From positions 1 to 35,404 of the forward strand of contig JAFGQO010000188.1 in the NCBI GenBank assembly GCA_016935615.1: a stretch of DNA of 35,404 nucleotides, written 5' to 3'. A program made the position numbers and the translations under genes. A model generated the notes under the pieces. The model made no database searches and was not told the origin of the DNA. It saw only the letters and a list, made by a program, of their open reading frames with translations. The stretch comes from Bacteroidales bacterium. GTDB taxonomy: Bacteria; Bacteroidota; Bacteroidia; Bacteroidales; UBA10428. Shown here piece after piece: positions 2,259 to 33,487 of this stretch. How positions within the stretch are numbered: position 1 is the stretch's first letter; every line of letters begins with the position of its first letter.

Positions 2259-2468
2259 TTGTTAATCAGCAAAATGATCTCCTACAAATCATATGAAAAT
2301 TTCATAGGAATACATTCCATTGCAAATAAATCATTTTTTAGATCAGGTACAGATGTTAGTCAAATTTTAGCAGAGAATATTTCAAACAAAGAATCAGCAG
2401 GCAATTCAACCGGGGCCAGAGGTTATCTAAAAAAATACCGGCAAAACAGGACTTATTCAATAGTATGA
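2259..2468 (+). CDS. Small hypothetical ORF between wzc and the flippase
   Basis: A 69-codon frame from a TTG at 2259, or 64 codons from the ATG at 2274. It fills the 230-bp gap between the kinase and the flippase. Its TGA overlaps the flippase ATG by 4 bp (ATGA), an arrangement often seen in translationally coupled genes. The product is polar, rich in Ser, Asn and Lys, with no membrane segment, signal peptide or motif I recognise, and no clear ribosome binding site precedes either start. It may be a real small operon protein or a chance open frame in leader sequence. Confidence 0.3.
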   Translation: MLISKMISYKSYENFIGIHSIANKSFFRSGTDVSQILAENISNKESAGNSTGARGYLKKYRQNRTYSIV

Positions 2469-4015
2469 AACTTTTTCAAAGAGAAACCTATAAGCGGGGA
2501 ATAGTTTTATCATCTCTTTTTAGTGTATTTGCAAAAGCACTTAACTTCCTTCAGACTATTGCTATAGCATTTTTTTTCGGAACAATCAATAGCCAGGTAG
2601 ATATTTATTTCTATTGTTATGGAATAATCTCCTTATTGTTCACCTCTATTTCCTTGTTAAATTATACAATCATAGTACCGGAAGCATTAAGGCTAAAAGC
2701 GCAGGAAGGGGAAAAACAATCTATGTATTTCCTTAACAAATGGTTGTATATTTATTTGGGAATCGGTTTCATTTTTACTCTGGTTGTGGCTTTTTTCCCC
2801 GTTAATACATATACTCTGATATCTAAGTTTAATACCGAATTGCTTGAAAAAAACACATTAATTATTTACCTGAGTATCCCTTTATTTCTGTTGATGGTAA
2901 TAAATCAGTTTTTCGTATCAATCCTGACCCTTTATAAGTTCTTTACCATGCCGCAACTGGTAAGAATAATAAACAATACCTTTGCACTTACATTCCTGAT
3001 TTTATTTCATAAAATACTCTCTGTAAACAGCATTTTGATCGGTTTGTTGCTAGGATTCTTAATAAACCTTGTAATACTTGTCAGAATGCTGATCAAACAA
3101 TGCAACTGGAGTTTTAAATATCATGCGTACAAATTGCCCATAAGAATCATAAGAGATGGGATTTTATCATTTTTTGGTCATTCCTCCAAGATTTTTTCAA
3201 ATTTCTTTGGCAATTATCTATTGAGTGGATTAGGATTGGGTGTTATTGCAGCCATGAATTTTGGTAACCGGGTTGCCGGTATTGCCAACGAAGTTGTTAC
3301 ACTTCAAACCGGGCCTGTTGTCGGTATTAAACTTGGTGAATTATTTGCTAAGAAAGATTACAATGGCATAAATAAATTATTTATCAGAACAACCAGTTTT
3401 CTTAATTTTGTCCTTATACCCATCAGTACACTATTCTTTATTTTTAGTGATGAGATCATTGCACTATTATTCCAGCGTGGAGCATTTGATTCCGGATCCA
3501 CACTTATGGTTTCATCCTATATGAGACAATTTGGTATCAGCCTGTCGTTGGTCTCAATTAATCTGATGGTCTCTGAAGTTTTTCAAAAAGCACAAAAAAT
3601 GAAACAATATTTCTGGTATCTCATTACGAAAAACAGCTTACTTACATTGTTAATATATTTTGGCGTAAAACGTTTTGGAGGAATAGGTTTTCCGGCAGCA
3701 ATCAATACTTCTGACTTTTTAAATCTGTTCTACTGCTTTATCATCATGAATTTATATTTTCCTTATATTCAATATAAAAAAATCATTTTGAAATTTTTTT
3801 CTCTTTTGGCAATAAATGTTCTGATAGGATATGGTATATATTTGTTTAGTAAATATATTCCGTTTCCAAACGTTTTAGTAAAAGTGATAGCCTGTTGCGG
3901 CTTGTACGGATTGATTCTTCTTATGCTCACTTATTTATTGGATTTAAATAGTGATGTTATTGAAGCTTTGGATAATATAAAAAGAAATTTATTGGTTAAA
4001 CTTGGAATGAAATAA
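2465..4015 (+). CDS. MurJ/MVIN-family lipid-linked oligosaccharide flippase (Wzx role)
   Basis: A 516-residue polytopic membrane protein of the MOP exporter superfamily, predicted to flip undecaprenyl-diphosphate-linked repeat units across the inner membrane. Hydrophobic segments run through nearly the whole length, consistent with 12-14 helices. The segment LLFQRGAFDSG near residue 337 matches the conserved MurJ 'LLFERGAFT' signature, so this is MurJ-like rather than classical Wzx/RfbX. It sits 3 bp before the polymerase gene and after the chain-length regulator, which suggests polysaccharide transport rather than housekeeping lipid II export. The start overlaps the stop of the preceding small ORF. 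The family is confident; the substrate is inferred. Confidence 0.88.
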   Translation: MKLFQRETYKRGIVLSSLFSVFAKALNFLQTIAIAFFFGTINSQVDIYFYCYGIISLLFTSISLLNYTIIVPEALRLKAQEGEKQSMYFLNKWLYIYLGIGFIFTLVVAFFPVNTYTLISKFNTELLEKNTLIIYLSIPLFLLMVINQFFVSILTLYKFFTMPQLVRIINNTFALTFLILFHKILSVNSILIGLLLGFLINLVILVRMLIKQCNWSFKYHAYKLPIRIIRDGILSFFGHSSKIFSNFFGNYLLSGLGLGVIAAMNFGNRVAGIANEVVTLQTGPVVGIKLGELFAKKDYNGINKLFIRTTSFLNFVLIPISTLFFIFSDEIIALLFQRGAFDSGSTLMVSSYMRQFGISLSLVSINLMVSEVFQKAQKMKQYFWYLITKNSLLTLLIYFGVKRFGGIGFPAAINTSDFLNLFYCFIIMNLYFPYIQYKKIILKFFSLLAINVLIGYGIYLFSKYIPFPNVLVKVIACCGLYGLILLMLTYLLDLNSDVIEALDNIKRNLLVKLGMK

Positions 4016-5430: not shown

Positions 5431-7284
5431 ATGTGCGGAATAGCAGGCATAATAAATTTCACTAACAAACCGGTTGAACAAGAAAAAGTTCAATTTATGA
5501 TGAATACCCTTAAACATCGCGGACCGGATGATGAGGGTATTTTTATCAAAGATAATTTTGGCCTGGGTCATGTTCGTTTAAGCATTCTTGACCTCTCATC
5601 GGCCGGTCATCAACCCATGTTCTCAAATGATGGAAGATATGGTATTGTTTTTAACGGTGAGATCTATAATTATATCGAGCTAAAAGAAGAGCTTAAAAGT
5701 AAGTATAGTTTTAAAACAAGAACTGATACTGAAGTGATCCTGGCAGCTTATCAACAATGGGGAGAAGCCTGCCTGGACCGGTTTAACGGAGATTTCGCCT
5801 TTGTAATATATGATAATAAGGAAAAAGAGTTTTTAGGTGTAAGGGACAGGTATGGAATAAAACCTTTCTATTATTACAAAGATCAGGAACAATTCATATT
5901 CGCTTCAGAATTAAAGGCTATTGTTCCTCTTTTAAAGAAAAAAGCCCCCAATGAGAAGCTTATTTTTGAATACCTGATTTACAACAGGACAGATCAATCA
6001 CTGGAAACATTCTTTGATGGAATAGTGAAGCTGGATCATGGGCATTATTTTAAAATTAAGAACAATAAATTTTCTACTCATCAATGGTATAAACTGGCAG
6101 ATAAGATTCATCCATTGGATCTGTCTCCTGAAGAATACAGGGAAGAATTACGGTCTACTTCAAAACTGCGATTACGCAGTGATGTTCCTGTGGGTATCAG
6201 TTTAAGCGGCGGAATAGACTCATCTGCAGTAACCAGTATTCTTTATCATGATTTTGGTCTTCATGAAATTAAGTCGTTCTCAGCTGTTTACGGAAAAGAT
6301 AAATGGGCTGATGAAAGCAATTTCATCGATGAATACAATTCTCAATTAAAGAATATGTTTTTTACCAATATTGATGCAGATACCTTTTTCAATGATTTTC
6401 AAAAATTCCTTATTGCACAAAATGAACCTGTTGCCGCCATCGGTCCTTATGCACAATATAAAGTTATGGAACTTGCTCATGGAAATGTTGTTGTAACACT
6501 TGACGGTCAGGGTGCAGACGAACAATTGGGAGGTTATCATTATTTCTTTGGCGGATATTTTAAAGAATTGCTTCGTACAAAACAATTGTTGCGTTTTCTT
6601 TCTGAAGCATCGTATTACTTAAAAAAACACAAATCTTTCTACGCTTTTAAGTACCTGGCATTTTATCTGCTTCCGGTAAAATATAAAAAGAATATCGGAA
6701 GTAAACTATTTGGAAGTGTAAACAAAGATTTTTACAACCGGTTAAATTCCAGGTCAACAATAGATGAGGATTTATACAACCCGAATACTTTAAATGAATC
6801 GTTATTACAGCATTTCGAACATAAACTGGAACATTTACTGAAATGGGATGACCATAATTCTCTCGCATTTTCCATTGAATCAAGAGTACCATTTCTGGAT
6901 CATAACCTGGTTGAAAAAACCTTATCCACTCCCCCGGAAAGAAAAATATACAAAGCAGAGACAAAACATATTTTGCGGGAATCGGTGAAAGACATTCTTC
7001 CTCACAAAATTTATAAAAGAAGAGATAAGAAAGGATTTACAACCCCCGCGGATGAATGGTTCAACAATGAAAAATTTGTTGCCTATATAGATGATTTATT
7101 GAATTCGGAATCATTCAGGACAAGAGGCTACTTTAACGCAGAGGATTGTAAAAGAAAATTTGAATTGCATAAGAATCTGAAAGCAGATGTGACAAAAGAT
7201 ATCTGGAAATGGATCAACCTCGAATTCTGGTTCCGGACTTATATCGATAATAGTAACATCAAAATCAATGATACCATGCATTAA
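5431..7284 (+). CDS. asnB: Asparagine synthase-type glutamine amidotransferase
   Basis: A 617-residue, two-domain AsnB-family enzyme that transfers ammonia from glutamine to an adenylated carboxylate. The start is fixed by MCGIAG, with Cys2 the class II glutaminase nucleophile after Met removal. Glutaminase residues HRGPDDEG (near 31), FNGEIYN and the GDFAF block follow. The synthetase domain carries the PP-loop SGGIDSS near 258-264 and GQGADEQLGGY near 360. Length and context resemble polysaccharide-locus members such as WbpS, thought to amidate uronic acids, more than the shorter housekeeping AsnB (about 554 residues). It follows the polymerase after a 158-bp gap and lies 37 bp before the next gene. 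Whether it makes asparagine or a uronamide cannot be told from sequence. Confidence 0.9.
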   Translation: MCGIAGIINFTNKPVEQEKVQFMMNTLKHRGPDDEGIFIKDNFGLGHVRLSILDLSSAGHQPMFSNDGRYGIVFNGEIYNYIELKEELKSKYSFKTRTDTEVILAAYQQWGEACLDRFNGDFAFVIYDNKEKEFLGVRDRYGIKPFYYYKDQEQFIFASELKAIVPLLKKKAPNEKLIFEYLIYNRTDQSLETFFDGIVKLDHGHYFKIKNNKFSTHQWYKLADKIHPLDLSPEEYREELRSTSKLRLRSDVPVGISLSGGIDSSAVTSILYHDFGLHEIKSFSAVYGKDKWADESNFIDEYNSQLKNMFFTNIDADTFFNDFQKFLIAQNEPVAAIGPYAQYKVMELAHGNVVVTLDGQGADEQLGGYHYFFGGYFKELLRTKQLLRFLSEASYYLKKHKSFYAFKYLAFYLLPVKYKKNIGSKLFGSVNKDFYNRLNSRSTIDEDLYNPNTLNESLLQHFEHKLEHLLKWDDHNSLAFSIESRVPFLDHNLVEKTLSTPPERKIYKAETKHILRESVKDILPHKIYKRRDKKGFTTPADEWFNNEKFVAYIDDLLNSESFRTRGYFNAEDCKRKFELHKNLKADVTKDIWKWINLEFWFRTYIDNSNIKINDTMH

Positions 7285-7321
7285 CAGAAAGAATCCATAG
7301 ATCAAACTATCAAAGAATATC

Positions 7322-8338: not shown

Positions 8339-8619
8339 TTTGCCAAAGTACTTACTTGAGCTGATTTGGCACGCATAACCACACGAATATACCAGATGTG
8401 TTAATAAAGTTGATAAACATAAGGATCAATTTGACAAACAAGTTGTTATAAAAAAAACAGAGATATAATTTTACATTACAAACTCTGTCTGTCTGCCTAA
8501 ATGATTTTTCAACCGTAATATGGAAGCAAGTATTTCACCTTAAATCAATAATCCATTAACAGATATGTTAGATGTAAAATTCAATATTGTAATCCTGTCT
8601 GTTCTAAGTTAGTATCTGA

Positions 8620-10563
8620 ATGATGAATACAAGCATAAAATGGTACCTGGCTCGTATCGGATCAATGTCTCCACAGGAATTTGTTTACAGACTGAGAATT
8701 GCCTTGGTGAATAAGCTGGCTGAATTTAAGAAAGGCAAGAATTTCAAGAATTGTTACTATACAGGTTATAATACAATATTCAATCCTGATCACATCAATT
8801 ATGATCTGGATATAAGCAGTATCAGACTATTTGATCTGCAAATACCATTAAAGAACAAATACAACTGGCACTTCGATCCCTATTCCAAACTCGAATTTCC
8901 AAAGGTTTTTTCAAAAAAAATCAATACCCGCGGATTTAATAATATGAGCGCAAAGCATGTATGGGAACTGAACAGGATGCAATTCCTGCCACAGATTGCT
9001 CTCAAGTTTCGGGTTACAGGCGACAAGAAATATCTTGATCTGATAAAGGACCTTATGTTATCATGGATAGATGACAATCCCTATATGATAGGAATTAACT
9101 GGTATAGTAATATTGAACTGGGATTGAGGCTCATTAACTGGGCTATTACATGGGATATCCTTGATATACAATCAATAACAGGAAAATCGAAAAGCTTTGA
9201 TCATTTTATAACTCAAAAATGGTTTCCTGTCATATATGCCCATTGCAAACGGATCCGGCAATCACTCTCACGGTTTTCATCTGCCAACAATCACCTGGTT
9301 GCAGAATTGGCCGGACTATTTGTTGCATCCAGTTTCTGGCATTTTAAGGAATCCGGGAAATGGAAAAAATTCAGTAAATCCGAATTGGAGAAAGAAATAA
9401 TCAAGCAACACTCCAAACATGGGATAAACCTTGAAGAAACTTCCGGCTATATTCAATATATTACGGATTTATTTCTCCTTTCCTGGTTTTATGCAGAACG
9501 AACAAGAAACAGTTTTTCAAATCAATACGATGAACGTTTGCGTAATATATTTCATTATATATTTCAACTTATTGATAGTAAAGGGAATCTGATACGATAT
9601 GGCGACGCAGATGACGGACATGCTTTGTTTCTTGAAAATGATGATTATTTGTATAATTTTAAATCATTGCTTACAACGGGATCAATTTTGTTTAACGAAC
9701 CGGTTTTTAAGGGCAAGTGTTCCGGATACGATTGCAGAAATCAACTATTCTTCGGAGAAAAATATCAAGCAGAATTTAACGATGTGGACTCATTAGTGCC
9801 GGCTAATGAAAAATCAAAATTTTATCCGGATGAAGGTCACTTCTTTTTTAGAAAATCTCTGGCAGATAAGGAAATCCTGTTGCATTTCAATGCGGCTTCT
9901 CTTGGCTATCTTTCGATTGCAGCTCATGGTCACGCAGATGCCTTATCGTACGTTCTCCATGTCGATGGTATTCCAATAATTGTTGATTGTGGGACATATA
10001 CAATACATACTCAGCAAGACTTTCGAAAATATTTTAAAGGAACACTGGCCCACAATACCATCAGAGTTGATAACCAGGATCAGGCATTATACAAAGGCCC
10101 GTCTCTCTGGAATGACCATTACAGAACTAAAGTCCTCCATTATAAGCTGAATGAAGTAACAGAAGAAAGCAGGGCAAACCATGATGGTTATCTGAAAAAT
10201 GGGGTTATACATATGCGCAGTATTCGATTCAATAAAGCTGAAAACAAATTTCTAATACAGGATACCCTGAATATTTCGGATGGTAAACTTCATCAGTTTG
10301 AATTGTGTCACCATCTTTCGCCTGATGTTACAATCGAAAGAAAGACTAATAATATACTTTTATTAAAATGTTCGCCTGCAAGAGTTACCGAAATAAGAAC
10401 CGACAAACAATTGAATATTGAATTGATAAAAGGTCAGAGAGATCCAATTCTGGGATATTATTCATCAGGTTTCCACTCCATTCAGGATACAACTGTAATA
10501 TATTCTAAATTTGAATCATCCAAATCAATTGTTATTTATACAGAGATATTCGTCATCGACTAA
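8620..10563 (+). CDS. Heparinase II/III family polysaccharide lyase
   Basis: A 647-residue protein with the two-part heparinase II/III layout: an N-terminal alpha/alpha toroid (to about 370) with SSANNHLVAELAG near 221 and an ETSGYIQY segment near 275, then a beta-sandwich domain with AHGHADALSY near 436 and LAHNTIRVDNQDQ near 477. These Asn, His and Tyr blocks correspond to the catalytic and metal-binding regions of PL12/PL15/PL17-like enzymes, which eliminate next to uronic acid residues. I see no convincing signal peptide; the N-terminus resembles cluster-encoded homologues in exopolysaccharide loci, where the enzyme is thought to process the nascent polymer. It begins a three-gene run with 25- and 16-bp gaps. 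ATG at 8623 is an equally possible start. Confidence 0.87.
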   Translation: MMNTSIKWYLARIGSMSPQEFVYRLRIALVNKLAEFKKGKNFKNCYYTGYNTIFNPDHINYDLDISSIRLFDLQIPLKNKYNWHFDPYSKLEFPKVFSKKINTRGFNNMSAKHVWELNRMQFLPQIALKFRVTGDKKYLDLIKDLMLSWIDDNPYMIGINWYSNIELGLRLINWAITWDILDIQSITGKSKSFDHFITQKWFPVIYAHCKRIRQSLSRFSSANNHLVAELAGLFVASSFWHFKESGKWKKFSKSELEKEIIKQHSKHGINLEETSGYIQYITDLFLLSWFYAERTRNSFSNQYDERLRNIFHYIFQLIDSKGNLIRYGDADDGHALFLENDDYLYNFKSLLTTGSILFNEPVFKGKCSGYDCRNQLFFGEKYQAEFNDVDSLVPANEKSKFYPDEGHFFFRKSLADKEILLHFNAASLGYLSIAAHGHADALSYVLHVDGIPIIVDCGTYTIHTQQDFRKYFKGTLAHNTIRVDNQDQALYKGPSLWNDHYRTKVLHYKLNEVTEESRANHDGYLKNGVIHMRSIRFNKAENKFLIQDTLNISDGKLHQFELCHHLSPDVTIERKTNNILLLKCSPARVTEIRTDKQLNIELIKGQRDPILGYYSSGFHSIQDTTVIYSKFESSKSIVIYTEIFVID

Positions 10564-10588: not shown

Positions 10589-11611
10589 ATGAAAATTTTA
10601 ATAGACCTCTATCATATTCCACAGTTCAACTTTTTTAAGAATACAATACTAAATCTTGACAAAGATGAAGTTGATCTTTGCTGTATCAATCGAGGTCGTT
10701 TAGTAAAAATAATTCAGAAAGAATGCCCGGGCTATAATCTGATTGTATTAGGTGATTATAAACACAATAAAGGTCGGTTTTCCATGTTGTTCAGAATTAT
10801 GATCCCTCGTGTATATGCTCTTCACAGGATGATTCGCCGTAACAAATATGATTTTGTGATCACAGCACACTACCAGGCAAACCTGGCTGCCAAATTAAAC
10901 AGGATTCCGAACATAGCACTCATTGATGACCCGCGTAAAATAGCTTTTGATATTGATAAGTTTTCAACGAACGAGCTATACATACCATGTTTCAGCAATG
11001 ACATACCAAAAACCAGGAAATTTAATGCACTTAAGGAATGGGCATATCTGTCCCCAAAATACTTTAAACCCAATCCTGAAATTTTACACGTTTATTCCTT
11101 AAAGCCAAAAGAATACATATTTATCAGAGAAGTTGATACCAGTACAAGCAATTATCTATCACAGGATAAAGACATAATTTTGCAGCAAGCTGAAAAAATC
11201 AGTGAGTTACCGCAAAAAATCGTGTTATCGCTTGAAAAGAAAATAAATAAACCGCTATATCCAGCGGACTGGATCATACTGGAGGAACCGGTTTCTGATA
11301 TTCATTCCTTGATGTATTATAGCAAACTCGTCATCTCCAGTGGTGATAGTATGGCTCGTGAAGGAAGCATGCTGGGCGTTCAAAGTATCTACTGTGGCGA
11401 AAGAGAAATGCCAGCCAATCATGTCTTAATCGAGAAAGGAATGCTCACAAAAGTACTGCCTGAAAAGCTGATTGATTCCTGCAGGGAAATTTTAATCAAT
11501 GACAAACAATTTATGGATCAGGATAAATTCAGAATTAAGCTTGAAAAGGACTGGGAGGATGTTACAAATTTCCTGATCAATAAAATAAAAATGTATACAA
11601 AACAAATCTAA
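10589..11611 (+). CDS. DUF354-family putative glycosyltransferase (GT-B like)
   Basis: A 340-residue cytosolic protein with no membrane segment. It begins MKILIDLYHIPQFNFFKN, the typical DUF354 opening (an MK-I-hydrophobic-D stretch followed by P.. FFKN), and has the C-terminal block LVISSGDSMAREGSMLGVQSI near 250-270, equivalent to the 'GGGTMNREAALLG' nucleotide-sugar site of GT-B enzymes related to UDP-GlcNAc 2-epimerase and MurG. DUF354 proteins occur in many capsule and archaeal polysaccharide loci, but donor and acceptor are not established. It is 25 bp after the lyase and 16 bp before the dehydrogenase, so co-expressed. Glycosyltransferase is the best reading; epimerase-like activity is possible. 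Confidence 0.72.
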   Translation: MKILIDLYHIPQFNFFKNTILNLDKDEVDLCCINRGRLVKIIQKECPGYNLIVLGDYKHNKGRFSMLFRIMIPRVYALHRMIRRNKYDFVITAHYQANLAAKLNRIPNIALIDDPRKIAFDIDKFSTNELYIPCFSNDIPKTRKFNALKEWAYLSPKYFKPNPEILHVYSLKPKEYIFIREVDTSTSNYLSQDKDIILQQAEKISELPQKIVLSLEKKINKPLYPADWIILEEPVSDIHSLMYYSKLVISSGDSMAREGSMLGVQSIYCGEREMPANHVLIEKGMLTKVLPEKLIDSCREILINDKQFMDQDKFRIKLEKDWEDVTNFLINKIKMYTKQI

Positions 11612-11627
11612 AATAAAACATTTAGTT

Positions 11628-12932
11628 ATGGATATTTCTATCTTCGGATTGGGTTATGTTGGTTGTGTCAGTATCGGATGTCTTGCGGCCAATTCTCATA
11701 AAATCATTGGTGTTGATATTAACAAACACAAAGTTGACCTCATTAACAAGGGCAAACCGACTATCATTGAAGCCGGAATTGATGAATTGATTGCAACCGG
11801 ATCAAAGAAAGGTTTGATTTCAGCAACAAATGATGCACGACAAGCTATTCTCGATACCGATATCTCTTTTATTTGCTCCGGAACGCCTTCATCACCTACC
11901 GGTCATTTGAATTTAAACAGCATATACCATATTGCAACCAATATCAGTCGTGGTATCAAAGAAAAAGATCGCTTTCATATTGTTGTGATACGCAGCACAG
12001 TAATGCCAGGCACAAATAGAAAAGTCGCCGAGATTATTCAAAAGGAAAGCGGAAAAAAACGAAACGAAGATTTTGCCGTTGTTTCAAATCCGGAATTTTT
12101 ACGTGAAGGATCCGCTGTTGCAGATTATAACAATCCTGCCGTGACCGTGTTAGGAAGCGACAGTCCGAAAGCACTGAAAACTATGAATGATCTGTATTCC
12201 TTTATAGATACTACCATTATTGAAACCAGTATTGAAGTTGCTGAAATAATAAAATATATTAATAATTCATTTCATGCACTGAAAATCACGTTTGCCAATG
12301 AAGTTGGAAACATTTGCAAATCATTGAAAATTGACTCTCATGAAGTAATGAGAGTATTCGGTACAGATAATAAATTGAATATCTCCACAGCCTATTTTAA
12401 ACCGGGTTTTGCATATGGCGGATCTTGTTTGCCCAAGGATCTGCAAGGACTCGGTACAATTGCTCATGATGCATACCTGAAAACTCCCCTGTTAAGTTCT
12501 ATACACGAATCGAATGAATACCAGAAAGAAATTGCTTTCCATCTTGTAACCAAATACAACAAACGAAGTATTGGTGTATTAGGCCTGAGTTTCAAAAAAG
12601 GAACCGATGACCTCAGGTACAGTCCTGCTGTTGATCTCGTTGAAAAACTCATAGGAAAAGGGTACACTGTATCGATATATGATAAAAATGTAAATCTTTC
12701 CAATATTACCGGAACAAATAAAGCCTATATCGATGAACATCTCCCTCATTTATCAAGTCTGATAACCGACGACCTTAAAAAAGTGATTCACGAGAATGAA
12801 GTATTGGTAATTACCTACAGAGAACATGAATTTGAAAATCTTATTGCTAATTATCCTGAAAAAATATTTGTGGATTTGGCTAAAGTCACCGAAGATACTA
12901 CACTGATTAATTACGAAGGCATTTGCTGGTAG
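11628..12932 (+). CDS. algD: GDP-mannose/UDP-glucose 6-dehydrogenase, AlgD-like
   Basis: A 434-residue NAD-dependent sugar-nucleotide dehydrogenase that oxidises C6 twice to make a uronic acid donor. The Rossmann start FGLGYVGCVS, the block NPEFLREGSAV near 154, and the catalytic Cys267 in YGGSCLPKD are all present. Resemblance to Pseudomonas AlgD is unusually extended from memory: VSFIC.GTPS, VRSTV.PGT, ANE.GNI.K, LGLSFK.GTDDLR.SP near 318 and even the terminal residues EGICW match, which favours GDP-mannose, yielding GDP-mannuronate, over UDP-glucose. Last gene of the lyase-glycosyltransferase-dehydrogenase run. The superfamily is certain; the GDP-mannose preference is likely but unproven. 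Confidence 0.9.
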   Translation: MDISIFGLGYVGCVSIGCLAANSHKIIGVDINKHKVDLINKGKPTIIEAGIDELIATGSKKGLISATNDARQAILDTDISFICSGTPSSPTGHLNLNSIYHIATNISRGIKEKDRFHIVVIRSTVMPGTNRKVAEIIQKESGKKRNEDFAVVSNPEFLREGSAVADYNNPAVTVLGSDSPKALKTMNDLYSFIDTTIIETSIEVAEIIKYINNSFHALKITFANEVGNICKSLKIDSHEVMRVFGTDNKLNISTAYFKPGFAYGGSCLPKDLQGLGTIAHDAYLKTPLLSSIHESNEYQKEIAFHLVTKYNKRSIGVLGLSFKKGTDDLRYSPAVDLVEKLIGKGYTVSIYDKNVNLSNITGTNKAYIDEHLPHLSSLITDDLKKVIHENEVLVITYREHEFENLIANYPEKIFVDLAKVTEDTTLINYEGICW

Positions 12933-13166
12933 GCTTTTTCATTACTCTTTATGCTTTCATTGTATTATTTCAGGAAATACATGCAAAGAATGAATTGATT
13001 TTCAATAGAAAGACAATATTCTGAATCGGAGTTTCACTCTTTTTCATTGTTTACCTCCGGAGATTGCCAATAGTTGTCATTGAGATTTTTGTTATTAATA
13101 ATTTTTATCCTAATCTTTTGCTTTTTTATTATTAATTAACTTACAATGGATTTAAAGGATAGATCT

Positions 13167-14609
13167 ATGAAAAAAATAATTCTACTGATTATGGTTATGT
13201 CTTTCATAACAGCATATGGCCAGAACAACTGGTATATTGATAATATTATGAAAAACGGTAGTGGTAGTTTTAAAGATCCTTTCAACAATTTTCTCTCAGC
13301 CATGCAGATACTCAGACCCGGAGATACTCTACTAATTATGCCCGGCACCTATTATCTTACATCCTTTATACTTCCGGTAAATTCAGGAAGTGCTTCGAAA
13401 TGGATAACTGTCAAAGCGTATAATCAAAATGACAGACCTGTTCTGAAAACGATTGCTGCAACAAATGCTATTCGAACAATCAACGTCGGATACTATAGAT
13501 GGGAAGGTATTGATATCGACGGTGACTTTTTAAATGGAGTATATCCGTTAATCAACTTACGGGCAGGTACACACCATTTTACATTTTATAACTGCAAATG
13601 GTATGAATCACATACCGACGGATTGGTTATCGAAGAAACCGATTATGTAAAGATTGATAGTTGTGAAATATACTATTGTGTGCATTATAAGGCAGAAGGT
13701 AAAAGGAAAGATGCTCATGGTATAATGTTCAAGAGCGGGAACAAGCTTACTGTCAACAATTGTAATATTCACCACAATTCGGGAGATTGCATACAATCAG
13801 GAACTTCGTTAACTTTTCCAACATGGGATTCGCTTATAATAACCAACAACCATTTATGGTCAGGCATGATCGACACAGTAGTAAATACCATGCCCTCACA
13901 CACATACTGGAGTGAAAATGGCATTGATACAAAGACACCCGATAGTGCAGATATTGCTCAATCTGAAGATCCTGACTGGAGAGCTTATGTCTATATTGAC
14001 AACAATATATTGCATGGATTCAATGGTGATTATGACTGGCCTGCAATAGCCATTAACATGGCGGTGGATGCCACGATTAAGAATACACTTGTATATGAAA
14101 GTGCAATTGCATATCGTTTAATGGGACCCAGTATCATCACATCAACCGGAACAATATCGAAAGGGCCGATTGTGAAAATGATAAATTGTATATCTTACGA
14201 TACCTTCTGGTCAGCCTTGTGGCCTCAAACCAATGTTGATTCATTGAGAATCTGGAATTGTACTTTTGATAATAGCATTGATACACTATGGTGGCCGGGA
14301 ATTCATGTTCGGGCACCTTCCTACTTTGATGACAGGGTGTCGTTCAATAAAGATAATTTCGATATGCGAAATACGATTTTTGTCAATTCAATGCCACCGG
14401 AACTGGCAGGTATTGTGAATAATACTGTATACATAGCTAATCCGGCTGATTTTGTTGATTATGAACATCATAATTATCATTTGGCTGAAACCTCAGGAGC
14501 TGTAAACAGTGGTGTTACAATTCCTGAAGTTACAGTTGATTTTGACTGCAATCCCAGAATTGCAGGAGAATATGATATAGGTGCTTTTGAGAAGCAACAT
14601 GATGAATAA
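13167..14609 (+). CDS. Secreted right-handed beta-helix protein, paralogue 1 (no sorting domain)
   Basis: A 480-residue exported beta-helix protein, first of three tandem paralogues. I chose the ATG at 13167 because it directly begins a signal peptide (MKKIILLIMVMSFITAYG, then QNNWYI); the upstream ATG at 13146 would add seven polar residues. The mature protein has pectate-lyase-like coils with ends typical of DUF1565/choice-of-anchor-Q proteins (CNPRIAGEYDIGAFE). Blocks shared with the paralogues include DAHGIMF, NIHHNSGDCIQSG, SENGIDTKTPD and a W-P-A-I-AINM segment, which probably line one active or sugar-binding face. It stops just after the helix cap, with no Big2 domain and no T9SS C-terminal domain, so it may remain periplasmic. 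Plausible roles are polysaccharide lyase, C5-epimerase or binding protein; substrate unknown. Confidence 0.8.
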   Translation: MKKIILLIMVMSFITAYGQNNWYIDNIMKNGSGSFKDPFNNFLSAMQILRPGDTLLIMPGTYYLTSFILPVNSGSASKWITVKAYNQNDRPVLKTIAATNAIRTINVGYYRWEGIDIDGDFLNGVYPLINLRAGTHHFTFYNCKWYESHTDGLVIEETDYVKIDSCEIYYCVHYKAEGKRKDAHGIMFKSGNKLTVNNCNIHHNSGDCIQSGTSLTFPTWDSLIITNNHLWSGMIDTVVNTMPSHTYWSENGIDTKTPDSADIAQSEDPDWRAYVYIDNNILHGFNGDYDWPAIAINMAVDATIKNTLVYESAIAYRLMGPSIITSTGTISKGPIVKMINCISYDTFWSALWPQTNVDSLRIWNCTFDNSIDTLWWPGIHVRAPSYFDDRVSFNKDNFDMRNTIFVNSMPPELAGIVNNTVYIANPADFVDYEHHNYHLAETSGAVNSGVTIPEVTVDFDCNPRIAGEYDIGAFEKQHDE

Positions 14610-14947
14610 TAATGTTTTTTTTCTGATAAGTTCATTGTATCACCATATACAATGCAATAGTCTATGTTATCAACATTGTTCTATACCTTATTTAAAGACA
14701 GTGGGGTTTAATTGTCAGTATGATTGATTATCAGTAAAGGAAATGTGCAGTTCGGAATTTGCATTATTCTTTCATAATATTTCAAATACTACCAAAGCAC
14801 AAACCTGAATCGCTTTGGTCAAAAAAAAGCAACATTTTTGATTTTTTTACGTATTAATTTCAAGCGGTATGCTATGCATATTGCAACGATTAACTTGGGC
14901 AAGTTAATTGAAAATCAATTAATTACAAAACTACTAAAAAACTAATA
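14610..14947 (+). other. Intergenic region between beta-helix paralogues 1 and 2
   Basis: 338 bp with no credible gene. Shortly after the upstream stop there is a perfect 8-bp inverted repeat (CATTGTAT 14633-14640 / ATACAATG 14647-14654, 6-nt loop) without a following T tract; it could be a weak terminator or mRNA 3'-end stabiliser. Around 14800-14850 the sequence is A/T-rich, but I do not find a convincing Bacteroidota TTTG / TAnnTTTG promoter pair. Two overlapping hairpins near the downstream start are listed separately. Confidence 0.5.
14889..14922 (+). promoter_or_regulatory. Two overlapping, mutually exclusive inverted repeats in the leader of beta-helix paralogue 2
   Basis: The first repeat is ATTAACTTG (14889-14897) / CAAGTTAAT (14900-14908) around GG. 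The second is TTAATTGA (14904-14911) / TCAATTAA (14915-14922) with an AAA loop. They share 14904-14908, so in RNA only one can form at a time, and the second ends 25 bp before the ATG at 14948. As DNA the first could equally be a dimeric regulator's operator. The geometry is seen directly; a regulatory role is inferred and neither stem is followed by a T tract. Confidence 0.35.
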
Positions 14948-17749
14948 ATGAAGTTTAGATGGTTATTTTCAGTTTTACTTATCACAACAACTTGGGCATT
15001 TGGGCAAAACACCTGGTATATTCACAATGGCGGAAGTAACGGTGATGGAAGTCTGAGCAATCCTTTTAATTCCTGGTCAAGCGCTATGAGCGCTTTAAGT
15101 GCAGGCGACACACTCAGGGTAATGCCTGGCACTTATTATCTTACAACGTATATTAATCCCACGAATTCTGGCAATAGTTCAGAACGAATCACTATTAAAG
15201 CTCATGATTTAAGCGCCAAGCCTGTTTTGAAATCAACAGGCACCAATATAATTCGGGCTGCCAGTAGTGTCACACATTATACCTGGGAGGGAATTGATAT
15301 GGACGGGGATTTTAATAATGGGGCAAATCCTTTAATTCAATTGAGAATTGGTTCGGATTATTGGACATTCTACAATTGCAAATGGTATGAATCTCATACT
15401 GATGGTTTAACCGTAACGGAATCGGATCATACTGTGATTGACAGTTGTGAAGTTTATTATTGCGTTAATCATGAAGCTGAGGGAGTAAGAAGAGATGCGC
15501 ATGGCATTATGTTCAGGAGTGGTAATCATATGGTTGTTAACAATTGCAATATTCACCACAATACAGGAGATTGCATACAATCGGGAAGCTCATTAACTTT
15601 TCCGACATGGGATTCTCTGATTATTACGAATAATCATTTATGGTCCGGAATGCTGGATACAGAGGTTAATACTCTTCCTGCAAATACCTACTGGAGTGAA
15701 AATGGCATTGACACAAAGACTCCCGATGCCAATGAGATTGCAAACAGCTCAAATCCAAACTGGAAGGCATATATATACATAGACAACAATGTCTTGCATG
15801 GATTTAACGGAAAACATGACTGGCCGGCTGTTGCTATTAATATGTCAGTAGATGCCACCATCAAGAACACAATAGTTTACGAAAGCGCTATAGCTTTCAG
15901 ATTGATGGGAGCTGATATTATCGCACAAACAGGAACAATGTCCGGACCACCACTTGTTACTATGTGGAACTGCATAACATACAACACGTTTTGGTCTTCA
16001 GTATGGATTGAAGATGATTTGGATGATGTGAAAATTTGGAACTGCACTTTTGACAATAGTATAGATACCTTATGGTGGCCGGGAATTCATGAACGGGCAC
16101 CTTCTTATTTTGAAGCCAGAACAAACATCGGGGATGACTTTGATATGCGAAATTGTATTTTTATAGATTCAGTACCTCCTGAATTGAATGGTCTTGTGGG
16201 CAACACTGTATACACTGCCAGTCCTGCTGATTTTACAGATTATGAAAACCATGATTATCATTTGGCATTTAATTCAGGCGCTGTGAATACAGGTGTTAAT
16301 ATTTCTGAAGTTGAGACCGATATTGAAGGCAATCCAAGAATTTCTGACCATTACGACATCGGCGCTTATGAAGCCGATTTTTCCGGCCCTCCCGTTTATG
16401 TTACCGATATAAATATTAGTTCTCAGAATGGTTCTGCAATCATAGAAAGACCAGGTGAAACTTTACAATTAACAGCATCGGTTCTGCCAACAAATGCAAC
16501 ACTAAAAACAGTAACCTGGTCAGTTATCAATGGTTCAGGAGAAGCTACAATCAGTACATCAGGGCTGGTTTCATCTGTTACTCCCGGAATTGTCACCGCA
16601 AGAGCAACAGCAAATGATGGATCCGGTATATACGATAATTTTGAAATTACTTTACAGGATCCACCTGTGTTAGTATCGGAAATAATTATTACAGCTTCAG
16701 GTGGTGCTACATCCATTGATCTGCCGGGAGAGTCATTGCAATTGACAGCATCAGTACTTCCATCAAATGCAGCAAATAAATCTATCACCTGGTCAATGAT
16801 TAATGGTAGCGGAGAAGCTACAGTCAGTACATCAGGACTTGTTACTGCCATTTCATCAGGAACGGTAACTGCAAGGGCAACAGCAAATGACGGATCTGGT
16901 ACCTATGGCAATTATTCCATAACCATTTTGACTCCGGAATACGCCGTAGCCAGTATCAATGTTACATCAGCCGGTGGGTCATCCACTATAGATTCTCCCG
17001 GCGGAACATTGCAATTAATTGCCAATATCCTGCCTGTAAATGCTGCCAACCAGAGTGTAACATGGTTAATGATGAACGAAAGTGGTGAAGCTACAATTGA
17101 TCCTTCAGGACTTGTTACTGCAGTTTCTGCAGGAACTGTAACCGCAAGAGCAAAAGCCAATGACGGATCCGGCATCTTTGATGATTTCACAATTACAATT
17201 CTGGATGCGATAATCTCTATTGAGAGTATCTATATATCTGTTGCAGAAGGATTGGAACCTGAAGTTGCGGTTGAACAAACCCTGCAGCTCCAGGCCGAAA
17301 TTTATCCTGCCAATGCAACAAATAAAACGGTAACATGGTCAATAAAAGAACATTCAGGAAAAGCTTCGATTGATGTCAATGGCCTTGTAACCGGTGAAGT
17401 TGCCGGAACTGTAACAGCTGTTGCTCTGGCCAATGACGGCACTTCGGAATATGATTATCTGGCACTAACCGTTTTAAGTCCGAATTCAGTGATTGATCCT
17501 GGTTCTGACAGTTGGGAGGCAGGCATCATAATCAATTATTCATATCCTTATCTGAGTGTTCGGTTTGAAAATCCGGATGAATCTTATCAAAGTGTATCTC
17601 TGTATACTATGAATGGTGTATTGCTATTAAAACAAGATCTTCATTCAGATGACTTTGAATACGAAGTATCAGGTTTTCAACCGGGATTATATTTTCTTGA
17701 AATAAGAGGAGAAATCCACAGGAAAATTTCTAAAATTGTTATATACTAA
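14948..17749 (+). CDS. Secreted beta-helix protein, paralogue 2, with four Big2 domains and T9SS sorting domain
   Basis: A 933-residue exported protein. The signal peptide is about residues 1-20 (MKFRWLFSVLLITTTWAFG, then Q). The beta-helix covers about 21-478 and shares all conserved blocks with its neighbours (DAHGIMF, NIHHN.GDCIQSG, ENGIDTKTPD, RLMG), capped by GNPRISDHYDIGAYE. Four Big2 bacterial Ig-like domains follow (about 483-845), each with a SGLV..V..G.VTA.A.ANDG signature. The last roughly 80 residues form a T9SS type A sorting domain (VSLYTMNGVLL, then GLYFLEIRG and a basic end), so the protein is expected on the cell surface or in the medium. The Big2 stalk probably holds the helix away from the cell. 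The terminator at 17817 ends this transcript. Enzyme activity is unproven. Confidence 0.85.
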   Translation: MKFRWLFSVLLITTTWAFGQNTWYIHNGGSNGDGSLSNPFNSWSSAMSALSAGDTLRVMPGTYYLTTYINPTNSGNSSERITIKAHDLSAKPVLKSTGTNIIRAASSVTHYTWEGIDMDGDFNNGANPLIQLRIGSDYWTFYNCKWYESHTDGLTVTESDHTVIDSCEVYYCVNHEAEGVRRDAHGIMFRSGNHMVVNNCNIHHNTGDCIQSGSSLTFPTWDSLIITNNHLWSGMLDTEVNTLPANTYWSENGIDTKTPDANEIANSSNPNWKAYIYIDNNVLHGFNGKHDWPAVAINMSVDATIKNTIVYESAIAFRLMGADIIAQTGTMSGPPLVTMWNCITYNTFWSSVWIEDDLDDVKIWNCTFDNSIDTLWWPGIHERAPSYFEARTNIGDDFDMRNCIFIDSVPPELNGLVGNTVYTASPADFTDYENHDYHLAFNSGAVNTGVNISEVETDIEGNPRISDHYDIGAYEADFSGPPVYVTDINISSQNGSAIIERPGETLQLTASVLPTNATLKTVTWSVINGSGEATISTSGLVSSVTPGIVTARATANDGSGIYDNFEITLQDPPVLVSEIIITASGGATSIDLPGESLQLTASVLPSNAANKSITWSMINGSGEATVSTSGLVTAISSGTVTARATANDGSGTYGNYSITILTPEYAVASINVTSAGGSSTIDSPGGTLQLIANILPVNAANQSVTWLMMNESGEATIDPSGLVTAVSAGTVTARAKANDGSGIFDDFTITILDAIISIESIYISVAEGLEPEVAVEQTLQLQAEIYPANATNKTVTWSIKEHSGKASIDVNGLVTGEVAGTVTAVALANDGTSEYDYLALTVLSPNSVIDPGSDSWEAGIIINYSYPYLSVRFENPDESYQSVSLYTMNGVLLLKQDLHSDDFEYEVSGFQPGLYFLEIRGEIHRKISKIVIY
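16394..17481 (+). repeat. Four tandem Big2-encoding repeats
   Basis: Four in-frame units of about 270 bp, starting near 16394, 16666, 16939 and 17209, each encoding a roughly 90-residue Big2 domain. Units 1-3 are clearly similar at nucleotide level, with near-identical stretches around the ANDGSG codons; unit 4 is more diverged. The single Big2 unit in paralogue 3 (about 19588-19855) is closest to units 1 and 2. Such repeats can expand or contract by recombination. Confidence 0.8.
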
Positions 17750-17816
17750 GATGAAATGCAAACATACAAGCCTATTGAGATAAAGCAAAATCGATATACC
17801 TAAAAACAAGAAATGG

Positions 17817-17857
17817 AACTGGAATACAATATTCTCTATTGTATTCCAGTTTTTTCT
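17817..17857 (+). terminator. Strong intrinsic terminator after beta-helix paralogue 2
   Basis: A perfect 15-bp stem: AACTGGAATACAATA (17817-17831) pairs with TATTGTATTCCAGTT (17837-17851) over a 5-nt loop TTCTC, followed directly by a T-rich run interrupted by one C. It lies 68 bp after the stop at 17749 and should separate paralogue 2 from paralogue 3. Confidence 0.85.
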
Positions 17858-18151
17858 TTGACTTTATTCTTTTATTTCATACATACAATTCGCAAAGAAT
17901 GGTCAGATTCAAATAAATTAATAAAAACAACACAAAATCAGTTCATAGTTTTATTTTTAATACGACATTTTAGATATATAAATCAATGCAATTCATGGTA
18001 AATAAGAATAATTTTGTTATGTGGTAAACAAAAACCGTTTGAGTTGAATGAAAGTCAGGATGAACCAGTCCTCCGAATTATCTCTGATCATTTCATAAAT
18101 GCCTATGAAAATTAATTGTAACTATAATCATGCTCCCAAAACCTTTTTATC
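17858..18151 (+). other. Leader region of beta-helix paralogue 3
   Basis: Together with 17750-17816 and the terminator this makes a 402-bp gap with no credible gene; a 62-codon frame at 17813 merely starts inside the terminator stem. Because the terminator isolates it, this stretch should contain the promoter of paralogue 3. I see no clear TAnnTTTG match. An AATTAATTGTAACTA stretch near 18110 resembles A/T-rich leader sequence before paralogues 1 and 2. Confidence 0.4.
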
Positions 18152-20137
18152 ATGAAAAAAACAGTTTTAATATTGCTTTTGTGTAACGCAGTATTCTGGT
18201 CATTCGGACAAAAAAACTGGTATATTCATAATGGCGGCAGTAATGGTGATGGCAGCATATCCGAGCCATTTAATTCCTGGCCGGATGCTATGGATGCATT
18301 AGCTCCCGGGGATACTTTAAGGATTTTGCCTGGAACATACTTTTTTACCAATTATATACTTCCTGTACATTCCGGAAATGCTTCAGAATGGATAACTGTT
18401 AAAGCCCATGATCTTAATAACAGACCTGTCTTTAAAATAACTACCGAAACAAATGCTATTCGAACAGCTGATATCACATATTATCGATGGGAAGGCATTG
18501 ATATAGACGGAGATTTTTTAAATGGAGCCTATCCACTGATTGATATGAGGCAAAATTCAGATCACATAACATTCTATAATTGTAAGTGGTATAAATCCCA
18601 TACAGACGGTTTAACCGTAACCGAATCTGATAATACCGTGGTTGATAATTGTGAAATTTATTATTGCGTGCATCATGATGCCGAAGGAGAAAGGAAAGAT
18701 GCCCATGGTATTATGTTTAGAAGTGGGAACCACATGATTATCAACAACTGTAACATTCATCATAATAGCGGAGACTGCATACAATCAGGAAGTTCCTTAA
18801 CTTTCCCGACATGGGATTCTCTGTTTATTACAAACAATCATTTATGGTCCGGGATAGTAGACACAGAGGTCAATACTCTTCCGGCAAATACCTACTGGAG
18901 TGAAAATGGCATTGATACAAAGACGCCTGATAGTGCTGAGATTGCAAACAGTCCAAACCCGGACTGGAAGGCATATATTTATATCGATAACAATGTATTG
19001 CATGGGTTTAATGGTAAATATGACTGGCCGGCTGTAGCAATTAATATGTCGGTTGATGCTACGATCAAGAACACTATAGTATATGAAAGCGCAATAGGTT
19101 TCAGATTGATGGGGCCTGATATCATAGCCCAGACAGGAACAATGTCCGGACCACCTCTTGTTACTATGTGGAACTGTGTCACATACGATACGTATTGGTG
19201 TTCATTATGGCCTGAAGATAATATTGAGAATGTAAAAATTTGGAATTGTACATTTGATAACAGCATAGACACAATGATGTGGCCGGGAATTCACGAACGA
19301 GCTCCTTCCTACTTTGATGCCAGGGTGAGTTTCAATGAGGAAAATTTCGATATGCGAAATACAATATTTGTTGATTCTATGCCCCCTGAATTGAATGGTG
19401 TTGTAGATAATACTGTGTACATAGCCAGTCCGGATGATTTCGTTGACTATGAAAATCATGATTATCACCTGGCATTTAATTCAGGTGCTGTGAATACAGG
19501 AGCAACCATTCCGGAAGTAGAAACCGATATTGAAGGCAATCCCAGAATTTCTGACCATTATGATATTGGTGCCTATGCATACATTCCTGTCAGTGCAACC
19601 GATATTATTATAACAGCTTCAGGTGGCGCTACAATGATAAGCAGGCCTGGTGAATCATTGCAACTAACAGCAACGGTGCTGCCGGCAAATGCAACAAATA
19701 AAACGGTATCCTGGTCTATAATCGAAGATACCGGGGAAGCATCAATTAGTTCTTCCGGTCTGGTTACTTCGGAAAGCCCCGGAATAGTCACTGCAAGAGC
19801 AACAGCGAACGACGGGTCCGGTATTTATGACGATTATGAAATAACATTGCTCAACATAACCAAATTGGATTCAGCAGAAATTAATACCGGAATGATCTTT
19901 CCTAATCCGACAAACGGAGATCTGTGGTATGTATTTGTCAGAGATTCTCATTCAGATCAGGGAAAGATTAACTTTAAAATAACCAATCTTAACGGAGAAA
20001 TTATAAAAGTTCTCTCTCAGACGGTTTTAGAAAACGACATTATGTATTTGGATGTCTCACATTTATTCACAGGAATATATTTTCTTACTGCAAGCACAGG
20101 ATCATCAGCAAAAAGTTATGTTTTCGTGAAAGAGTAA
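18152..20137 (+). CDS. Secreted beta-helix protein, paralogue 3, with one Big2 domain and T9SS sorting domain
   Basis: A 661-residue exported protein. The signal peptide is MKKTVLILLLCNAVFWSFG, then QKNWYI. The beta-helix (about 20-475) is very similar to paralogue 2, with ENGIDTKTPD at 251-260, the same DAHGIMF and GDCIQSG blocks and the cap GNPRISDHYDIGAYA. One Big2 domain follows (about 480-568), then a T9SS type A sorting domain that starts with the typical MIFPNPTNG and contains ITNLNGEI and GIYFL. It converges on the NRPS gene with only 59 bp between stops. Surface display or release is expected; activity is unknown, with lyase or epimerase on an acidic polysaccharide the leading guesses. 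Confidence 0.85.
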   Translation: MKKTVLILLLCNAVFWSFGQKNWYIHNGGSNGDGSISEPFNSWPDAMDALAPGDTLRILPGTYFFTNYILPVHSGNASEWITVKAHDLNNRPVFKITTETNAIRTADITYYRWEGIDIDGDFLNGAYPLIDMRQNSDHITFYNCKWYKSHTDGLTVTESDNTVVDNCEIYYCVHHDAEGERKDAHGIMFRSGNHMIINNCNIHHNSGDCIQSGSSLTFPTWDSLFITNNHLWSGIVDTEVNTLPANTYWSENGIDTKTPDSAEIANSPNPDWKAYIYIDNNVLHGFNGKYDWPAVAINMSVDATIKNTIVYESAIGFRLMGPDIIAQTGTMSGPPLVTMWNCVTYDTYWCSLWPEDNIENVKIWNCTFDNSIDTMMWPGIHERAPSYFDARVSFNEENFDMRNTIFVDSMPPELNGVVDNTVYIASPDDFVDYENHDYHLAFNSGAVNTGATIPEVETDIEGNPRISDHYDIGAYAYIPVSATDIIITASGGATMISRPGESLQLTATVLPANATNKTVSWSIIEDTGEASISSSGLVTSESPGIVTARATANDGSGIYDDYEITLLNITKLDSAEINTGMIFPNPTNGDLWYVFVRDSHSDQGKINFKITNLNGEIIKVLSQTVLENDIMYLDVSHLFTGIYFLTASTGSSAKSYVFVKE

Positions 20138-32671: not shown

Positions 32672-33487
32672 TTGCTAAATTTGGATTCCAATAACCTGGT
32701 CTTTTTGCATGACCGAATTCATTCTAATTTGAACTGGTCATTTTTTGTTAAAATATCTTCAGCACAGGAGCAAAATAGCAGAGAAAATAATATTTTACCT
32801 GTATACATCGGCAATACTTCGAATTTTCATCAGTCTGTCAATAAATTTACCGGGCATTTATCTTCATTTGAAAGGAATCGGTCCAGAAAATTTATACATT
32901 CACTTCAAGCAGAAAACTATATTTTATCCCATTATTTTCTGAGACTTGAATTAGCTAAAATTCTGGCTTTAGCACCCAAAAAACTGCAAATTGAATACCC
33001 CCACGGGAAAAAACCATTTTTAGCAGGTTTTAATTTGGATTTTAGCATCTCACATTCTCAGGACTTTTTTGCCATCGCGATTTCCGATTCAGCTGATACA
33101 AGTGTAGGTGTTGATATTGAAAAAATCAATACTTTACAGAATTACGATGATGTCAGTAATGATTATTTCCACGAAGATGAGAAAAAATATATTCGGAAGC
33201 ATTCATTCACCGATCAATTAAAACGTATTCATTTTCTGGAAATATGGACACGAAAAGAGGCTTTCCTGAAAATGACCGGACTTGGTCTCACCAATCAACT
33301 ATCCAAAATTATAATGACTCCTCAAAACAATATTATAAGCATTGACATTCCCGATGACCTCAAAATAAAACATAAGAAAGCACATATTTACACAATGAAA
33401 GATGATCGGTTTATTCTCAGTTTATCATGTTCAGATATCAGAACTCCGGTAATTCATTCAATTCGTATTGCAAAAAGTGATCTTTAA
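32672..33487 (+). CDS. Sfp-type 4'-phosphopantetheinyl transferase
   Basis: A 271-residue enzyme that moves phosphopantetheine from CoA onto carrier-protein serines; the obvious clients are Ser1006, Ser2015 and Ser3070 of the adjacent NRPS-PKS. The three family blocks are present: FSISHS near 126, VGVDIEKI near 147 (Mg-binding Asp/Glu) and WTRKEAFLKMTG near 191. There is no in-frame ATG before the core; I use the TTG at 32672, but a TTG near 32729 or another non-ATG codon is possible, and the first 45 residues look unlike typical Sfp proteins. It lies 97 bp after the pseudogene, divergent from the acyltransferase/NRPS strand. Function is confident; the start is not. Confidence 0.88.
   Translation: MLNLDSNNLVFLHDRIHSNLNWSFFVKISSAQEQNSRENNILPVYIGNTSNFHQSVNKFTGHLSSFERNRSRKFIHSLQAENYILSHYFLRLELAKILALAPKKLQIEYPHGKKPFLAGFNLDFSISHSQDFFAIAISDSADTSVGVDIEKINTLQNYDDVSNDYFHEDEKKYIRKHSFTDQLKRIHFLEIWTRKEAFLKMTGLGLTNQLSKIIMTPQNNIISIDIPDDLKIKHKKAHIYTMKDDRFILSLSCSDIRTPVIHSIRIAKSDL

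Follow-up and report, generated by a model that had tools for sequence, protein, structure and literature searches.

Three tandem beta-helix paralogues with different tails beside an AlgD-type gene of a Bacteroidales bacterium: candidate uronan lyases of an unclassified family

Three tandem paralogues with one helix and different tails

The window analysed here, a 35,404-nucleotide stretch of a Bacteroidales bacterium (GenBank JAFGQO010000188.1, assembly GCA_016935615.1), belongs, as contig C24, to an assembly of 3.8 Mb in 225 contigs that is 95.6% complete and 7.1% contaminated. It carries in tandem three open reading frames (ORF1, ORF2 and ORF3; Table 1) whose products start with what looks by eye like a signal peptide, followed by the same beta-helix domain. 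An earlier note on this DNA had claimed that the helix occurs once with no tail, once with four Big2 domains and a type IX secretion system (T9SS) signal, and once with a single Big2 and such a signal, and domain scans and alignments confirmed this. In the Pfam scan Big_2 matches four stretches of ORF2 and one of ORF3, and both proteins match Por_Secre_tail (27.5 bits in ORF2, cut-off 27, and 38.6 bits in ORF3), with which TIGR04183 concurs (24.6 and 31.4 bits, cut-off 23). In ORF1 neither the Big2 nor the T9SS models found a match in the Pfam and NCBIfam scans. The reading frame of ORF1 is open from 13146 to 14609, the ATG at 13167 being the likelier start, and a lost tail or a frameshift 3' of the gene was rejected, since neither tail was matched in the following 338 bases (tblastn).

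Aligned over their whole length, the helix domains are 65-78% identical between paralogues (309/474, 327/475 and 369/474 residues), ORF2 and ORF3 being the closest pair. Nonsynonymous divergence (dN) is low relative to synonymous divergence (dS), 0.215 versus 1.70 for ORF1/ORF3 and 0.142 versus 1.38 for ORF2/ORF3 (for ORF1/ORF2 dS is saturated), a pattern that would fit any conserved function. Between ORF2 and ORF3 similarity at the DNA level extends through the first Big2 and stops before the tails, which suggests that the unit copied was the helix with one Big2, and that Big2 was multiplied afterwards in ORF2. The three blocks that had been called almost unchanged are present in each ORF (DAHGIMF beginning at residue 182/183/183, GDCIQ at 206/207/207 and ENGIDTK at 250/251/251 of ORF1/ORF2/ORF3), although such constancy has to be read against paralogues that are this similar overall anyway. 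An enrichment of identities in groove segments (22/38 versus 159/395 elsewhere, Fisher p 0.04) was given no weight, because the segments were picked after the blocks had been seen. A fourth family member, about 40% identical, comes from a congeneric genome (G001) and has its helix joined directly to a T9SS tail; in it DAHGIMF is unaltered, GDCIQ is retained, and ENAFDTKTID stands in place of ENGIDTKTPD. In all four members D208, E251, D255 and K257 (ORF3 numbering, used below) are invariant.

The T9SS tails of ORF2 and ORF3 are probably usable by the host, because its genome encodes the T9SS sortase PorU (1173 bits, cut-off 420, with none of 14 controls matching; the T9SS search was limited to PorU), and the two proteins are probably delivered to the surface. 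The suggestion that the copies serve different compartments holds to this extent for two of the three; the tail-less ORF1 protein is probably periplasmic.

Predicted fold and structural matches

Two AlphaFold models, built from 4 sequences (pLDDT 70.5, pTM 0.78) and from 9 sequences (pLDDT 76.3, pTM 0.82), predict the same right-handed beta-helix, and in both of them parallel beta-sheet 1 may comprise, one coil after another, the short strands at residues 154-156, 187-189, 210-212 and 254-256. D152, D183/H185, D208, E251, D255 and K257 are placed in these strands or a few residues from them (a register of the models, not a measured cluster), which suggests that the conserved residues lie on the edge where beta-helix lyases usually carry their groove. 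The earlier note had looked to structure prediction for whether the conserved residues share one groove, and in the models the conserved blocks do fall at or beside strands 187-189, 210-212 and 254-256 on the presumed groove edge.

Foldseek places structures of polysaccharide lyase (PL) families PL9 and PL6 at the top, and for the second model also structures of glycoside hydrolase (GH) type GH136 and of PsAly (PDB 6kfn), which we take to be a member of PL31, close behind. With the second model 6kfn has a target-normalised TM-score of 0.70, the highest among the best 50 matches listed, and superposes over 270/298 residues (rmsd 2.2, Z 28.0).

Comparison with known lyase families

Generic or partial models aside, no Pfam or NCBIfam model fits the helix, and several hints lead to PL9. 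The NCBIfam scan gives an N-terminal PelN match, and the family profile, when searched against solved structures (hmmsearch), finds 1ru4 (E 2e-4), a PL9 pectate lyase that is the sole enzyme among the sequence matches. Our alignment A3 matches four PL9-type proteins (hhalign E 3.1e-18, 326 columns), residues 1-366 being alignable, and PL9 structures (Pel9A 1ru4 and rhamnogalacturonan lyase 5olq) are the top Foldseek matches. Pel9A has a catalytic Lys273 and the calcium ligands Asp209, Asp233 and Asp237 (PMC10992409). In the helix family, by contrast, hhalign finds D255 in the Lys273 column and D183, Gly207 and Gln211 in the three ligand columns, so that one ligand of three is kept, and searches with the PL9 profile PF22842 were negative, with E allowed up to 10 for ORF1 and up to 1 for ORF2 and ORF3. 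Plain PL9 membership was therefore rejected, the column of the catalytic Lys being Asp. In a pairwise test of 30 ORFs, the PL9-type G-N-G-F-K proteins L004, L011 and L019 place a Lys on column 255. L004 belongs to the studied genome itself (contig C55) and carries an InlB-like repeat and a T9SS tail in addition to its PL9-type beta-helix; L011 (6585-9707, genome G010) consists of a PL9-type helix, cadherins, a second helix and a T9SS tail, and is encoded in a polysaccharide-synthesis locus that also has a DUF354-like gene.

AlgL and AlgE are polymer-modifying enzymes of organisms with AlgD genes; the fold of AlgL differs from the beta-helix. A mannuronan C5-epimerase of the AlgE/AlgG type would suit the AlgD-type neighbour of our genes (see below), structural matching ranks AlgE4 and AlgE6 near the top (Z 30.8 and 30.7 in the comparison with the second model, 29.9 and 30.3 in the other), and the DAH of the family resembles the D-P-H of epimerases. 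The fold that is shared with the AlgE A-module (Z 30.8) is, however, common to many families, and the AlgE catalytic pattern Y-x-x-D-x-H (Tyr149, Asp152 and His154; PMC7385640) was found by motif search in none of ORF1, ORF2 and ORF3. In addition, no epimerase occurs among the sequence matches, and hhalign puts D183 of DAH on a calcium-ligand Asp column of PL9. With the AlgE signature missing, the epimerase was set aside as very improbable despite the strong fold matches, and of the earlier proposal of "lyases or C5-epimerases" it is the lyase half that is favoured, on account of the register described next.

PsAly is an endolytic lyase that prefers polymannuronate and holds a cation by Glu181, Glu216 and Asp219, with Lys221 as the proposed base and Tyr184 as the acid (PMC6796002). 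The bridge from our family to PsAly is a group of five beta-helix proteins of the same order (L016, L017, L024, L032 and L041), picked by motif from the order-sample loci, in which an E-G-I-D-x-K coil comes after an E-[CA]-[IL] coil. A3 aligns with this EGIDxK group over 410 columns (hhalign E 2.8e-23), I254-D255-T256-K257 falling on I-D-x-K, and the group in turn aligns with PsAly and 8 homologues (E 4.3e-15); E193, E223, D226 and K228 of L016 fall on PsAly E181, E216, D219 and K221. The pattern E-x-[IVF]-D-[IV]-K occurs in 9/9 PsAly-type sequences, which had been collected by similarity and not by motif. The D219-x-K221 pair of PsAly is thus matched by D255-x-K257 in 4/4 members of the helix family, an equivalence that runs via the EGIDxK group only, and because of this register lyase chemistry is favoured. 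The EGIDxK proteins may themselves represent a broader group of lyases, intermediate between PL9 and PL31, that has escaped recognition. Apart from the D-x-K pair and the fold, the family has in common with PsAly a G-[VI]-[HM]-F-R coil, for which direct hhalign pairs R156 of PsAly with R190 of the family, a Lys in ORF1. In a manual comparison the coil G-D-C-I-Q-S-G-S also resembles G-E-G-I-Y-V-G-S of PsAly, for which reason we read D208 as the counterpart of Glu181; E251 may likewise take part in holding a cation. By analogy, the most likely working is PsAly-like: D255 and E251 on one coil and D208 on the preceding coil would hold a cation that neutralises the uronate carboxylate, K257 would abstract the C5 proton, and the chain would be broken by beta-elimination.

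Several findings weigh against this assignment. The counterpart of Tyr184 is absent, with Gln211 (in the manual coil order) or Met188 (in the other register) standing there instead; L016 has Ser at that position, and the EGIDxK group lacks the Tyr too. When the family is aligned with this group, residues 203-214 stay outside the alignment, the Glu equivalent to E181 falls next to H185/G186 and not on D208, and N252 rather than E251 faces the Glu216 column, D208 and E251 lying nearby. Compared directly with the PsAly set, A3 aligns over residues 44-204 only (hhalign E 1.5e-10), the catalytic coils stay unpaired in forced alignments, and 6kfn was not listed by phmmer or hmmsearch of solved structures. 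Since the EGIDxK group was chosen by motif, the presence of the motif in it is circular, although the alignment register is not; in the pairwise test D and K fell on columns 255 and 257 in only 4/30 ORFs, with L032 off register though it bears the motif, two ORFs too short to reach the columns, and L036, L038 and L039 having Lys at 257 without Asp at 255. Motif-like strings also arise in 2-3% of shuffles. As for the fold, 6kfn is short, which favours a target-normalised score (query-normalised it scores 0.45, less than the 0.52 of 5olr); its lead with the first model is slight (0.58 versus 0.57 for Pel9A); and the input of the second model included the EGIDxK group, which may have pulled that model towards PsAly. 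RbmB, BT_1002, AlgE4/6, PL9 and others have Z scores at least as high as that of PsAly, and because so many beta-helix families, NosD included, lie between Z 28 and 31 (VIA-align), fold ranking alone decides nothing about chemistry.

The family further differs from PsAly in having Met188 at the His154 column, one extra residue before I-D-x-K, a larger C-terminal part, Big2 and T9SS tails, and a catalytic coil that is not directly alignable. Judged from sequence, it fails defining features of both PL9 (the catalytic Lys) and PL31 (the catalytic Tyr and similarity of the catalytic coil), and for this reason we file it under neither.

Two further explanations bear on the same residues. A beta-helix glycoside hydrolase of the GH110/GH136-like kind, working with paired Asp/Glu, would fit the several invariant acidic residues in the groove region, and the Foldseek matches include a GH136-type lacto-N-biosidase and GH110 (7v6m, 5gqc and 9beh, 7v6m being at rank 6 with the second model). 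An invariant Lys two residues after the Asp, in PsAly register via the EGIDxK group, points instead to a lyase, as does the PL9 pectate lyase being the only enzyme that the profile finds among solved structures, and we regard a hydrolase as improbable. Alternatively, the helix could be a non-catalytic polysaccharide-binding or structural protein of the capsule or matrix, similar to an adhesin: the adhesin PfbA and NosD have the same fold, Big2 domains are common in adhesins, and Tyr184 of PsAly is not kept. The invariance of D208, E251, D255 and K257 in four members speaks against this, and it too seems quite improbable. That the helix is a uronan lyase of some kind, whichever its substrate, we consider probable.

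Gene neighbourhood and the presumed polymer

The gene upstream of ORF1 had been described in the earlier note as of AlgD type, and this is borne out by a full-length match to Pseudomonas AlgD, in which 209/434 residues are identical and the score is 437 bits, versus 237 bits (E 4e-69) for the best UDP-glucose dehydrogenase (phmmer, solved structures). NCBIfam had hinted at AglM/TuaD below the model cut-offs, but identification as a UDP-glucose dehydrogenase was rejected, as the search of structures favours AlgD by 200 bits. Further upstream (Table 1) are a heparinase II/III gene, two genes from the AlgD-type gene, genes for chain-length control, a flippase and other functions, and a gene for a 417-aa protein that has no Pfam match and appears, by eye, polymerase-like from its hydrophobic make-up. 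This gene set, together with the AlgD-type dehydrogenase, points to a Wzx/Wzy-type polymer in which mannuronate would be one of several sugars, and not to a homopolymer like alginate. Between the amidotransferase and heparinase genes lies a gene (7322-8338) whose 338-aa product matches CBM60 below threshold (25.3 bits, cut-off 28.2). On the other side of the helix genes, and apparently unrelated to them, a 3388-aa protein that resembles nonribosomal peptide and polyketide synthases (NRPS/PKS) in its translation (20197-30363, reverse strand) forms a probable small-molecule cluster with an acyltransferase (30812-31873, reverse strand) and a phosphopantetheinyl transferase (32672-33487, forward strand).

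Table 1. Positions of the helix genes, their conserved blocks and domains, and the upstream genes in the window
Feature	Position	Strand	Basis
Wzc-like chain-length/export kinase	18..2234	+	GNVR and AAA_31 matches
MurJ-family flippase, putative Wzx-like role	2465..4015	+	PF03023 E 2.9e-22
Asparagine-synthase-like amidotransferase	5431..7284	+	Pfam scan
Heparinase II/III family protein	8620..10563	+	PF07940 E 1.6e-38, PF16889 E 2.6e-15
DUF354 (glycosyltransferase-like) protein	10589..11611	+	PF04007 E 9.1e-13
AlgD-type GDP-mannose 6-dehydrogenase	11628..12932	+	phmmer to 1mfz, E 7.8e-130 over 1-434
ORF1: signal-peptide-like start, beta-helix, tail-less, 480 aa	13167..14609	+	ORF call, Pfam/NCBIfam scans
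ORF1 DAHGIMF block	13710..13730	+	sequence motif search
ORF1 GDCIQSG block, coil preceding proposed base coil (coil order assigned manually)	13782..13802	+	
ORF1 ENGIDTKTPD block, proposed cation/base coil	13914..13943	+	motif search, profile alignments
ORF2: beta-helix, four Big2, T9SS type A tail, 933 aa	14948..17749	+	Pfam/NCBIfam scans
ORF2 DAHGIMF block	15494..15514	+	
ORF2 GDCIQSG block	15566..15586	+	
ORF2 ENGIDTKTPD block	15698..15727	+	
ORF2 Big2 limits	residues 482-565, 573-656, 664-747, 756-838		
ORF3: beta-helix, one Big2, T9SS type A tail, 661 aa	18152..20137	+	Pfam/NCBIfam scans
ORF3 DAHGIMF block	18698..18718	+	
ORF3 GDCIQSG block	18770..18790	+	
ORF3 ENGIDTKTPD block (E251, D255, K257)	18902..18931	+	
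ORF3 Big2 limits	residues 479-562		

Relatives of the helix and AlgD-type loci elsewhere

Full-length members of the helix family were found in 2/23 genomes of the taxonomic family, namely the studied genome and G001; outside the studied genome there were no full-length relatives in a class sample of 395 genomes and none in a phylum sample of 395. In the order sample 43/393 genomes match at E 1e-6, and among the matches listed all but the three genes described here are partial, mostly covering the N-terminal third. A profile search of wider genome contigs gave no relatives with alignment A2, and with A3 two matches, of which one is apparently the G001 contig and the other a 60-residue N-terminal stretch.

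We compared 13 AlgD-type loci of other genomes (L054-L057 and L068-L076, several of them cut by contig ends) with 7 UDP-glucose-dehydrogenase-type loci as controls (L077-L082 and L084, the latter on the same contig as L054). Heparinase II/III is encoded near 5/13 AlgD-type genes versus 0/7 controls, or near 3/11 when L054 and L055, which supplied model sequences, are left out. T9SS beta-helix proteins occur at 2/13 versus 0/7, but both positives are again L054 and L055, which makes this count uninformative on frequency, and T9SS tails of any kind (5/13: L054, L055, L056, L070 and L072; 2/7: L082 and L084) do not discriminate. The recurrent link of AlgD-type genes is therefore with heparinase only. 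Within the taxonomic family, L054 (genome G012) has a heparinase II/III gene (7053-8978) and the AlgD-type gene (9043-10374) followed downstream by two PL14 proteins (14067-17321 and 17641-20000), one of them seen with a T9SS tail: the first combines CBM60, cadherin repeats, a beta-helix and a T9SS tail, and CBM60 is thus common to it and, below threshold, to the 338-aa protein of the window. In G014 (L055) a T9SS protein with beta-helix regions lies a few kb from the AlgD-type gene, and in G015 (L057) the contig ends at the gene.

Because of the AlgD-type neighbour and of the G012 locus with its two downstream PL14 proteins, the cell's own mannuronate-containing polymer is plausibly the substrate, a reading that draws on gene neighbourhood. 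Three observations run counter to it. No polysaccharide-synthesis locus could be recognised around the G001 gene (20 kb, by eye); its genome yielded a UDP-glucose-dehydrogenase-like gene only (39% identity) and no AlgD-type gene; and 20 kb of the AlgD-type locus of G009 (L056) are without a heparinase or beta-helix match. The same lyase chemistry might instead be directed at a foreign polysaccharide, i.e. uronans of algae or plants that serve as food, with the adjacent synthesis locus a coincidence. Besides the missing AlgD-type gene of G001, it would fit this explanation that the G001 copy adjoins another T9SS beta-helix protein (L010, 6133-8046), that the studied genome also has the PL9-type T9SS protein L004, and that flavobacterial enzymes with T9SS, Big and PL31 parts act on algal alginate (PMC13235733). 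On the other hand, Pfam scans of 13 window proteins (the NRPS/PKS-like ORF being outside the scan) recognised no SusC/SusD or uronate-catabolism genes, one copy has no T9SS tail, and T9SS PL14 or beta-helix genes stand in AlgD-type loci of two other members of the taxonomic family. We think a foreign substrate unlikely.

A possible lyase for the cell's own polymer

Our tentative explanation, which we put at somewhat short of an even chance, is that the helix belongs to a divergent beta-helix family, as yet unclassified and akin to PL31 and PL9, that it is a cation-assisted lyase, and that it acts on the cell's own polymer. Its substrate would be the mannuronate-containing product of the upstream Wzx/Wzy-type synthesis genes. 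The tail-less ORF1 protein would act in the periplasm in an AlgL-like clearing role, and ORF2 and ORF3 would act at the surface, four Big2 domains or one serving as a long or a short spacer.

Parts of this arrangement have precedents. RbmB, a Vibrio matrix lyase, cuts the exopolysaccharide of its own producer (PMC11637428) and is a beta-helix match to our model (Z 31.4), although its polymer is a different one and it is not among the family's sequence matches to solved structures. CelAly of Flavobacteriaceae combines GH5 and PL31 with Big domains, whose number varies, and with a T9SS tail (PMC13235733). It resembles our proteins in its PL31 domain, its variable Big count and its tail, and differs in that its Big domains are Big_7 and not Big_2, in its fusion to a GH5 cellulase and in acting on brown-algal wall polymers. 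The variation of tails is thus not new in kind, whereas three tandem copies of one domain, one of them without a sorting tail, seem an unusual set. A literature search by titles and abstract openings found no papers on such a polymer/lyase locus and none on the helix family.

The fullest version of the explanation, namely that one self-polymer lyase was triplicated and sent to three addresses (periplasm, short-spacer surface and long-spacer surface), founding a new family with a PsAly-like D-x-K and a different acid, is a doubtful one as a whole. If it is true, the same mannuronate-containing polymer would be trimmed in three places, namely before it is exported, on the cell surface and, further from the cell, in the matrix, and the AlgD-type gene of a Bacteroidales-type organism would be tied to the organism's own secreted lyases. 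The three proteins, alike in catalytic domain and unlike only in their tails, would then be a natural series on which effects of compartment and spacer length would be directly testable.

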